Positions 20,086 to 28,139 of a stretch of 32,312 bases of DNA are shown here, one piece after another. Below the pieces are notes generated by a model, which was not told the DNA's origin, made no database searches, and saw nothing but the letters and a program-made list of their open reading frames with translations. This DNA is from Lysobacterales bacterium (GTDB taxonomy: Bacteria; Pseudomonadota; Gammaproteobacteria; Steroidobacterales; Steroidobacteraceae), in the NCBI GenBank assembly GCA_003819815.1, contig RPQJ01000030.1, positions 1 to 32,312 of the forward strand, written 5' to 3'. A program made the translations under genes and the position numbers. How positions within the stretch are numbered: position 1 is the stretch's first letter; the number at the start of each line of letters is the position of its first letter.

Positions 20086-21264
20086 TCAGCCGCTCGCCGC
20101 GAGCTGCTCGCGGTGATAGAGCCGGGCCGCGAGCCACCACACGGCCACGACGAGCAGCGCGCCTGCTCCCAGGCTCAGCGCCCACTCGAACGGGGCGATG
20201 CGCTCGCCGCGCAGCACCCGCAGGATCAGCTGGTTCTGGCCGAGGAACGGCACGGCCAGCATCCAGGCGCGCGTCTTCACCGGCGCGACCATCAGGTACA
20301 GCGTCGGCAGCATCGGCAGGAAAATGAGGAGCGGCAGGTAGCCCTGTGCCTCCCGGTGGCTGCGCGCGAACGCGGCGAGCGCGGTCAGCACGGTGGCACC
20401 CAGCAGCACGACGGGCAGCACCACGAGCAGCAGCTTCACGAGCGCGTCCGCGGGCACCGCGAGCGAGGCGTCGACGCGGTTCTCGGGCACGAACGTGAAC
20501 GCCACGCGGTACATGACCAGCGTCGCGAGCAGCGAGAGCAGCGTGAACGCGGCCGTCGCGAGGATCTTGCCGCTGATGATCGCCTCCCGCGACGCCGGCG
20601 TCGCGAGCAGCGGCTCGAGCGACTGGCGCTCGCGCTCGCCGGCCGTCGCGTCGACGGCGAGCTGCATGCCGCCCACGAACGCGAGCAGCAGCAGCAGGTA
20701 CGGCAGCATCTGCTGCGCGAGGTCGAAGCGCGACTCGGGCGTGGCGACGTCGCGCGAGCCCAGACGCAACGGTTGTGCCACGGACGGGTGGATGCCACGC
20801 GCGACGAGCCGCAGCGCGCCCACTTCGCGATCGTAGGCGTCGAGCAGGCCGCGCAGCCGCGCCACCGTCGCCCCGGACTGCAGCGGTCGCGAGCTGTCGT
20901 AGACGAGCTCGAGTGACGCAGGACGCCCGGCGCGCCAGTCCTCCGCGTAGGACGGCGAGATGCGCAGGATCGCCTCGTGCCGCTGCCCGCGGACCGCGGC
21001 TTCGGGGTCCGCGGGCGCGTCGATGACCCGGACGTCGTGAGTCGCGAGCCACGCGAGCAGGTTCGGCGCGTGCTCGCGCCCGACGACGGGCAGCTCCAGC
21101 GTGCGCTCGAGCTGCTCGGCCTGCTTGCGCATCCCGAGCGTGCTCAGGCCCGCGAGCAGCAGCGGCACCGCAAGCGGCATCACGACGAGCGCGACGAGCA
21201 CCATCCGCCGGTCGCGGAACGCGTCGAGCAGCTCCTTCCGGAACACCGTCCAGACCGCGTTCAT
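20086..21264 (-). CDS. ABC transporter permease (NatB/ABC-2 type)
   Basis: VFRKELLDAFRDRRMVLVALVVMPLAVPLLL; LATPASREAIISGKILATA ABC-2 motif; multiple TM. Confidence 0.88.
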   Translation of the reverse strand: MNAVWTVFRKELLDAFRDRRMVLVALVVMPLAVPLLLAGLSTLGMRKQAEQLERTLELPVVGREHAPNLLAWLATHDVRVIDAPADPEAAVRGQRHEAILRISPSYAEDWRAGRPASLELVYDSSRPLQSGATVARLRGLLDAYDREVGALRLVARGIHPSVAQPLRLGSRDVATPESRFDLAQQMLPYLLLLLAFVGGMQLAVDATAGERERQSLEPLLATPASREAIISGKILATAAFTLLSLLATLVMYRVAFTFVPENRVDASLAVPADALVKLLLVVLPVVLLGATVLTALAAFARSHREAQGYLPLLIFLPMLPTLYLMVAPVKTRAWMLAVPFLGQNQLILRVLRGERIAPFEWALSLGAGALLVVAVWWLAARLYHREQLAASG

Positions 21265-26277: not shown

Positions 26278-27161
26278 CGGCATCCGAGCCCGTCGAGGTG
26301 TATCGCTCCTACTGGCGACCGGCCAGCGAGGAGCGCGGCTTCGTGCTGCACGCCGTCGGCATCGAATCGGTGGTCGTCCGGGTCGGCGCGACGTGGGTGC
26401 TCTACGTGCCCGCGGAGTCCACGGACGCCGCGCTCGTGCAGCTGCGACGCTACGAGCTCGAGAACCCGCCGCGACGCCGCCCCGCCGCGCCCGAGCCGCT
26501 GCACCGGCACGCGTGGGTGGGCTCCGCGGCCTACGCGTTCGTGATGCTGCTCGTCGGGTACCTGGCCGGCGAGTTCGCGTACGGCGTCGACTGGCTCGCG
26601 GCCGGCGCGCTGCGCGGCGCACCGACGCAGGCCGGCGAATGGTGGCGGGCCGTGACCGCGCTGACGCTGCACCTCGACGTCGGCCACCTGCTCGCGAACC
26701 TCGGCTTCGGCACGGTGTTCGGGCTGCTCGCCGGCCAGCTGCTCGGCACGGGCGTCGCGTGGGCGACGGTCCTCGCCGCGGCGGCGGGCGCCAATCTCGT
26801 GAACGCGTTCCTGCAGCCGGCGAACCACTCCTCGGTGGGTGCCTCGACCGCGGTCTTCGCGACGCTCGGGCTGCTCGCAGCCTACGCGTGGCGCCGGCGG
26901 CACGACGCCGGCGATCGCTGGGCGTACCGCTGGGCGCCGCTGGTCGCGGGCGTGATCCTGCTCGGCTTCACCGGTGCCGGCGGCGAACGCACCGACGTCG
27001 TCGCGCACCTGACGGGATTCGCGGCGGGCACGCTCGCCGGCATCGCGCACGCGCGCTGGCCGGCGCGGCGCGGCGCGGTTGCTCAATGGCTCGCTGGGCT
27101 GGTCAGCGTCGCAGTCCTTGCCGGCGCGTGGGCGCTCGCGCTTTCGGCGGCTGCGCGGTAA
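26274..27161 (+). CDS. Rhomboid family intramembrane serine protease (2) with soluble N-terminal domain
   Basis: GTG at 26274 overlapping the preceding stop (GTGA); EWWRAVTALTLHLDVGHLLANLGFG, SSVGASTAVFATLG (GxSxxxF), VAHLTGFAAGTLAG. Confidence 0.88.
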   Translation: MTASEPVEVYRSYWRPASEERGFVLHAVGIESVVVRVGATWVLYVPAESTDAALVQLRRYELENPPRRRPAAPEPLHRHAWVGSAAYAFVMLLVGYLAGEFAYGVDWLAAGALRGAPTQAGEWWRAVTALTLHLDVGHLLANLGFGTVFGLLAGQLLGTGVAWATVLAAAAGANLVNAFLQPANHSSVGASTAVFATLGLLAAYAWRRRHDAGDRWAYRWAPLVAGVILLGFTGAGGERTDVVAHLTGFAAGTLAGIAHARWPARRGAVAQWLAGLVSVAVLAGAWALALSAAAR

Positions 27162-27178: not shown

Positions 27179-27295
27179 CCGGAGCGGGGGCAGAGGGGCT
27201 GCCCGGCCGGGACGCGTGAACCCATCCCTGGGGCTCCGGCGCCGCGTCCCTGCGGCGCACGGCCCGGCCGGACAGCCCCTCTGCCCCCGCTCCGG
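27179..27295 (-). repeat. Long-stem hairpin element A (conserved core on - strand)
   Basis: Arms 27179-27211 / 27263-27295 (33 bp, 32 matched); 51-nt core 27212-27262 whose reverse complement is CCGTGCGCCGCAGGGACGCGGCGCCGGAGCCCCAGGGATGGGTTCACGCGT. Confidence 0.92.
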
Positions 27296-27408
27296 AAACG
27301 GTGGCGCACGCCGTGAGTCGATGCAGTGGTGAGGCGCACACCATCGCGCTCGGCGGCTCGTTCCATCGATCCGTTTCCCCGCCGTCCCTCGACGCCGCAC
27401 CTGCAGCA

Positions 27409-27521
27409 GCGCGTCCGGGCGTGGGGTGGCCTGCCCGGGCCGTGCGCGGCAGGGATGCCGCGCCGGAGCCCCAGGGATGGGTTCACGCGTCCCGGGCAGG
27501 CCACCCCACGCCCGGACGCGC
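27409..27521 (+). repeat. Long-stem hairpin element B (conserved core on + strand)
   Basis: Arms 27409-27439 / 27491-27521 (31 bp, perfect); 51-nt core 27440-27490 CCGTGCGCGGCAGGGATGCCGCGCCGGAGCCCCAGGGATGGGTTCACGCGT, 48/51 identical to the A core. Confidence 0.93.
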
Positions 27522-27536
27522 GGCCGACTGCGCGCC

Positions 27537-27660
27537 GAACCGTTCGGGTGGCTCCGGAGTACTTCCGAGGGCCGTGCGCCGCATGGACGCGGCGCCCGGA
27601 GCCCCCATGGAGGGGTTTACGGCGTCCCTCGGAAGTACTCCGGAACCACCCGAGCGGTTC
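27537..27660 (+). repeat. Long-stem hairpin element C (conserved core on + strand)
   Basis: Arms 27537-27571 / 27626-27660 (35 bp, 33 matched); 54-nt core 27572-27625 CCGTGCGCCGCATGGACGCGGCGCCCGGAGCCCCCATGGAGGGGTTTACGGCGT. Confidence 0.92.
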
Positions 27661-27676: not shown

Positions 27677-28024
27677 TCAGATCGACACGCGCACGGAGCC
27701 GTCCCGCACGGTGACCTTGTAGATCGTGAGCGGCTTCTGCCCGCGCACCGCGTTCAGGAGCTGGATGCCAACCGGGAAATTCGCCCAGTCGATCACCTCG
27801 CCCGTGCGGATGTCGAAGCGGGCGCGGTGGAACGGGCACTGGACCTTGCAGCCATCGACGATCTTGCCGCGGGCGAGCGGCGCGAAGACGTGCGTGCAAC
27901 TCGCCTGCGTGGCGTAGAAGCCGTCCGCGAGGTGGTAGACCACGATGTTGCGGCCCGCCACCTGGAAGGCCTTCATGTGGCCGCGCTTGATCTCGTCGGT
28001 GCGGCAGACGACGTGCTGCTTCAT
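27677..28024 (-). CDS. Rieske (2Fe-2S) ferredoxin-like protein
   Basis: ATG at 28024; ASCTHVFAPLARGKIVDGCKVQCPFHRARFDIRTGEVIDWA (CxH...CxxH). Confidence 0.92.
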   Translation of the reverse strand: MKQHVVCRTDEIKRGHMKAFQVAGRNIVVYHLADGFYATQASCTHVFAPLARGKIVDGCKVQCPFHRARFDIRTGEVIDWANFPVGIQLLNAVRGQKPLTIYKVTVRDGSVRVSI

Positions 28025-28139
28025 GGCTCCCCCGTCCGGCCATGGCGTGGCCACAGTGTAGCCGCGGCGCCCGTCCCGGCGCGAGCGGACACGCATCGGG
28101 ATTTACCGGTATCCTCCCGCGACTTCGAGCGAGCCCGCC

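Follow-up and report, generated by a model that had tools for sequence, protein, structure and literature searches.

Three hairpin elements between convergent genes

The window, that is, the whole stretch of 32,312 nucleotides analysed here, contains a cluster of three long hairpins, flanked by a rhomboid-domain gene that ends at 27161 on the plus strand and by a Rieske-domain gene at 27677-28096 on the minus strand; the two genes are convergent and both point at the cluster. Element A (27179-27295, minus strand) has 36-nt arms that are 94% complementary (inverted repeat I4) and a two-hairpin core on top. Element B (about 27408-27523, plus strand) also has a two-hairpin core, and its long stem is part of 50-nt arms with 84% complementarity (inverted repeat I2), while element C (27537-27660, plus strand) has 38-nt arms that are 92% complementary (inverted repeat I3). 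All three fold far better than shuffled sequence, with z from -8.3 to -12.4 (-10.5 for A and -12.4 for C), and their sense folds are more stable than the antisense folds. Elements A and B make up a divergent unit, of which diverged paralogues are found on contigs C83 and C127. The spacer between them (27296-27407, assigned to neither strand) has no sigma-70 promoter match, nor does a sigma-70 scan find any elsewhere at the window locus, where this GC-rich genome may use weaker promoters; a scan of the locus for intrinsic terminators also returns none. A plasmid search for the region gives nothing informative.

A covariance model (R1, from alignment A3), built from 50 non-redundant copies that come from other genomes, picks out these three elements in the window and nothing else convincing: A at 27277-27197 on the minus strand (58.7 bits, E 2e-13), B at 27425-27505 on the plus strand (68.2 bits, E 7e-16), and C at 27557-27640 on the plus strand (83.3 bits, E 7e-20). 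One further match at 20622-20692 (E 0.022) is weak, has many broken pairs and was discarded. The core of element C belongs to the commonest class, GAGCCNNC[ANGGAN]GNNTTNACGGCGT.

The six core loops read exactly as an earlier note on this DNA had given them, in sequence and in coordinates. In the first hairpin of each core, these are A1 (27246-27251, minus strand; GCGCCGC[AGGGAC]GCGGCGC), B1 (27451-27456, plus strand; GCGCGGC[AGGGAT]GCCGCGC) and C1 (27583-27588, plus strand; GCGCCGC[ATGGAC]GCGGCGC), each closed by a C-G pair with a closing probability of 1.00. In the second hairpin they are A2 (27224-27229, minus strand) and B2 (27473-27478, plus strand), both GAGCCCC[AGGGAT]GGGTTC, and C2 (27607-27612, plus strand; GAGCCCCC[ATGGAG]GGGTTT). 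The note's description of all six as C-[ANGGAN]-G hexaloops holds for hairpin 1 of A, B and C, while for hairpin 2 it agrees with the comparative structure but is ambiguous in single-sequence folding, in which the closing pair has probabilities of 0.22, 0.22 and 0.00 in A2, B2 and C2, respectively. The single-sequence alternatives have the loop of hairpin 2 moved by one base, or opened; for C2 the one-base-shifted loop CATGGA is preferred, where the comparative structure favours ATGGAG. The loop-to-loop spacing is 22, 22 and 24 nt in A, B and C. The co-variation between twin loops of one element, also proposed in the note, shrinks to a weak tendency: both loops have the same second base in 26 of 50 relatives, where 18.6 would be expected (p 0.017).

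Conservation of structure, loops and strand

The 50 copies behind the model were chosen by helix register, with no requirement on loop 1, and their alignment is free of gaps. Both sides change in 24 of the 27 pairs, and the outer stem and hairpin 1 vary freely with compensatory substitutions. The covariation score is 0.78, against 0.20 for shuffled and at most 0.16 for slid controls, and 92.7% of the cells at paired positions are complementary, compared with 62% after shuffling and no more than 45% in the slid alignments. Loop 1 reads A-N-G-G-A-N in all 50 copies, with the A, G, G and A invariant and the two N positions and the surrounding helix variable, and its closing pair is C-G in 49 of them. 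As background, ANGGAN occurs in 30 of 2123 other hexaloop hairpins with 6 Watson-Crick base pairs in related genomes (1.4%). ANGGAN retention in other copies, a check proposed in the note, is thus seen at loop 1 in all 50 of these copies, even though this loop was not used for selection.

A second ANGGAN hexaloop lies 23 nt from loop 1 in the family, and in 142 of 157 copies the two loops are separated by 22-24 nt; since loop 2 belonged to the search pattern, its conservation is not independent evidence. The inner helix of hairpin 2 covaries. RNAalifold gives this hairpin as GCC-NNC[ANGGAN]GNN-UUYAC-GGC, and an alternative register pairs GAG with UUY; the parts involved are invariant or nearly so, and covariation does not choose between the two. 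The GCC...UUYACGGC GU part is invariant in the 50-copy alignment, and GA/GA flanks occur in the first hairpin of some relatives. Within one genome the outer stems of most copies are nearly unrelated to each other and yet well paired over about 30 bp, with a conserved 60-nt core.

Mismatches in the outer stems are G.T in 237 cases versus A.C in 56, and 100 copies favour G.T versus 15 that favour A.C (p 1e-16, with related copies not fully independent). Equality of the two would be expected without selection on one folded strand, so the excess of G.T shows that the GGA strand is the folded one. The excess is equal in copies sense and antisense to codirectional neighbours, and, by a simple codon-usage gene caller rather than curated annotation, the copies take either orientation to neighbouring genes at random (29 sense, 33 antisense) and lie in 33 convergent, 62 codirectional and 13 divergent contexts, with promoter regions avoided. 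Random orientation together with an equal excess argues that transcription of the flanking genes is not what keeps the GGA strand folded; promoters of the elements' own, or a single-stranded DNA form during mobilisation, are possible explanations. No T-tract follows the sense stem: at least six T in 12 nt are found in 2 of 137 cases on the sense side and in 18 of 137 on the antisense side. In the named copies, the count of T in the 12 nt beyond the stem is 3.6 on the antisense versus 2.1 on the sense side. No conserved promoter or target motif is found at the stem bases beyond a weak A, seen in the named copies as a mild preference at the base immediately 5' of the 5' arm.

Distribution in Gammaproteobacteria

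Overall, elements A, B and C are copies of a dispersed, structure-conserved family of Gammaproteobacteria. A search with the core pattern gives about 20 confirmed copies in the draft genome to which the window belongs, many of them in divergent pairs, and the covariance model finds 33 copies there and 11-20 in each of eight congeners. In the GTDB genomes, the pattern GAGCCNNCANGGANGNNTTNACGGCGT matches at least 119 stretches; among the matches listed, the records named to class or below are Gammaproteobacteria, a few being named only as Proteobacteria, and they include Stenotrophomonas, Xanthomonas, Marinobacter, Microbulbifer, Rheinheimera, Yersinia and Methylococcales. Across 299 genomes of the phylum, those with multiple copies belong to Gammaproteobacteria, and the reversed pattern has zero matches. 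The family is present in 41 of 296 Gammaproteobacteria genomes, with a highest copy number of 509.

All 28 close pairs counted among the listed matches of the genus and of genome G029 are divergent, with the GGA strands outward. The named sample has 17 close pairs, of which 11 are divergent and one is convergent. The genome with the most copies (G535, stretches L187-L256) carries about 509 of them in 5.1 Mb, among which subfamilies share long flanks with terminal inverted repeats; in some of its copies an insert inside hairpin 1 replaces the GGA loop, and no strand or replichore bias of the copies is visible. In another genome (G222, contig C1, 94444-95606, stretch L157), six direct copies follow each other regularly, about 227 nt apart, as an apparent tandem array.

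Relation to known RNA families

At the gathering cut-offs of Rfam the window has no match, and weak eukaryotic microRNA matches to element C are artefacts of the long stem. One of the closest known systems is TwoAYGGAY (RF01731; Weinberg et al. 2010, PMC2864571), whose two small hairpins end in AYGGAY loops. It shares with our elements the long stem, the pair of small hairpins, the ACGG...CGU that follows the second of them, multiple copies in some genomes, and the tandem GA reported for it (PMC4333381), which is found in hairpin 1 of some element relatives. The window elements have the two-hairpin architecture, but their loops are ANGGAN (C1 is AYGGAY, C2 is ATGGAG, and those of A and B are AGGGAN), their core is short and their stems are GC-rich and copy-specific. 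Neither the window nor its genome has an RF01731 match at E <= 10 (gathering score 43 bits). One relative (L136) aligns loop-on-loop with TwoAYGGAY below the cut-off (27.8 bits, E 0.012), and another (L185) lies above it (43.8 bits) and is also matched by model R1 (E 4e-13), so that homology runs from an accepted RF01731 member through R1 to A, B and C.

A second link leads to Ysr224 (RF02770), reported as expressed and multi-copy (PMC9029176, PMC12112432). In Yersinia proxima (stretch L042, 375-481), a Ysr224 match of 94 bits and an R1 match of 61 bits fall on one place, where the Ysr224 model runs along the strand that does not carry the GGA loops. In the window, the antisense strand of C scores 26.2 bits with RF02770, below the family's gathering score of 70 bits. 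Ysr224 thus has the same core as the window family and differs in that its Rfam strand is without GGA loops: the Ysr224 of Yersinia is this element read from its other strand, and the strand in Rfam is apparently wrong. These are the only transcripts of the family in the literature, and they are annotated on the strand without GGA. Because the window elements pass neither Rfam cut-off, it is by homology, and not by Rfam membership, that we place them as a GC-rich branch of a TwoAYGGAY superfamily. Compared with the literature searched, what is new is the breadth, the copy number, the copy-specific covarying stems, the divergent pairing, the strand asymmetry and the link between RF01731 and RF02770.

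CsrA as candidate ligand

SELEX with CsrA gave the consensus RUACARGGAUGU, which in most cases lay in a loop of six bases closed by AC/GU; the ligand of RsmE in NMR is an ANGGAN hexaloop; and a single CsrA dimer can bridge two sites at a distance of 10-63 nt, working best when this exceeds 18 nt (PMC7652899). Among 176 copies, hairpin 2 fits [AU]CANGGANG[AU] in 69 and has UACARGGAUGU exactly in 14, and the elements carry at least two GGA sites in ANGGAN hairpin loops, as expected of a candidate CsrA-sequestering RNA. The earlier note had put the elements forward as candidate CsrA/RsmA ligands, and the comparison strengthens this: the hexaloop, the C-G closure, the fixed A-GGA, the free N positions and the spacing of the two sites are conserved class-wide while the helices around the loops are replaced, and the same ligand appears in the SELEX and NMR data (PMC7652899). 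The loops are therefore very probably conserved as CsrA-type ligands, and we infer CsrA as the likely ligand of the family. The idea is partly published, as CsrA sequestration was proposed in 2014 by Gardner and Eldai for TwoAYGGAY, of the same superfamily (PMC4333381); beyond that paper, nothing on the function of the family was found in the literature searched. The CsrB/RsmZ-type sRNAs are alike in their repeated GGA hexaloop hairpins, a CsrA ligand (PMC7652899), but they hold many sites in one sRNA, whereas the family has two sites per element in many scattered copies, and no promoter or terminator was found at the window locus.

No csrA is found in the draft genome itself, which is 87% complete; the note had seen neither a csrA gene nor a clear promoter in this DNA. 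Three congeners, including the one that is 100% complete, have csrA. In congeners the gene is found between tRNA-Ser/tRNA-Arg and an 879-aa neighbour, which we take to be alaS from its length and the usual synteny. The alaS gene is essential, and it is also missing from the draft, which has only a 36% partial match. Since alaS of the same locus is missing too, the absence of csrA is probably an assembly gap that leaves the whole locus unassembled. Within Gammaproteobacteria, csrA is present in 263 of 296 genomes (89%), so that its co-occurrence with the elements cannot discriminate, and this test of the CsrA idea was dropped. One genome (G495), 98% complete with seven copies and no CsrA match, counts against the CsrA reading.

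Interpretation and alternative explanations

Taken together, we find it reasonably probable that the family is a dispersed repeat RNA with paired CsrA-type loops, which would bind CsrA when transcribed and might act as a distributed pool. In the folded GGA strand, a long stem leads by way of a three-way junction to two small hairpins, which present C-G-closed ANGGAN hexaloops at 22-24 nt from each other, so that one CsrA/RsmA dimer could hold both. The RNA might be made when transcription of a flanking gene runs on into the element, or from weak promoters between the two members of a divergent pair; if the A/B spacer held a divergent promoter, both GGA strands would be transcribed. The RNA of a transcribed element may then bind CsrA, and with 33 copies in this genome and as many as 509 in others, the elements could sum to a distributed pool that titrates or recruits CsrA. 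As the orientation is random and no promoter was found, the sponge-like role suggested in the note is kept as a putative one, and CsrA titration as a physiological effect is speculative. More tentatively, the class-wide repeats as a whole, which commonly form divergent pairs and number from tens to hundreds of copies, might make up a CsrA-binding pool spread over the genome, a sponge or a set of 3'-UTR tags composed of repeats and not of one CsrB-like gene, part of it misannotated as Ysr224 on the wrong strand.

A mobile DNA element of the MITE or REP kind, whose hairpins are single-stranded DNA signals for a transposase that recognises the conserved loops and junction, and whose likeness to CsrA sites is coincidental, would account for the dispersed intergenic copies in random orientation, for up to 509 copies per genome in subfamilies sharing stems and inverted-repeat flanks, and for a G.T excess independent of flanking transcription. 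The family is indeed intergenic, high-copy, palindromic and paired in opposite orientation like the REP/BIME elements with RAYT transposases (PMC2817692), which its divergent pairs resemble. It differs from these in its conserved apical core on a variable stem, and a Y1 transposase (REP-associated, RAYT) is not required, being absent from two genomes with 56 and 10 copies (G527 and G576), both 99% complete. Moreover, no target or terminal motif is conserved beyond the weak A, the stems vary among copies that keep the same core, which is not the usual picture for fresh copies of a transposon, and the exact ANGGAN/C-G hexaloop in both hairpins is left unexplained. We consider this reading unlikely as the whole explanation; it is compatible with CsrA binding, as a mobile element can carry CsrA sites.

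CsrA does not need the invariant GCC...UUYACGGC GU, and this part points to an additional interaction, which would suit a TwoAYGGAY-family structured RNA with another ligand, protein or RNA; this is improbable, as the loops have the length, the closing pair, the invariant A-GGA and the free N positions of the CsrA/RsmE ligand. That the long stem alone matters, as a bidirectional terminator or 3'-end stabiliser of the convergent rhomboid-like and Rieske-like genes, would fit the avoidance of promoter regions and the two flanking genes that point at the cluster, but the stem is followed by no T-tract, the scan finds no terminator, and the invariant core, the loops and the GCC/GGC-UUYAC motif are left unexplained, which makes it very improbable here.

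In the prevailing view, a small number of dedicated sRNAs largely determine how active CsrA is. Should repeats between genes, in their hundreds, carry paired CsrA ligands of high affinity, the extent of titration could follow transcription or read-through across the genome, and an expansion of the repeats would offer a route to rewiring a global regulator. The family may represent a large group of CsrA-binding RNAs that had gone unrecognised, and it unites two unexplained Rfam entries, RF01731 and RF02770. Model R1 and alignment A3 give predictions that can be tested in culturable genera, among them Marinobacter, Stenotrophomonas and Microbulbifer.
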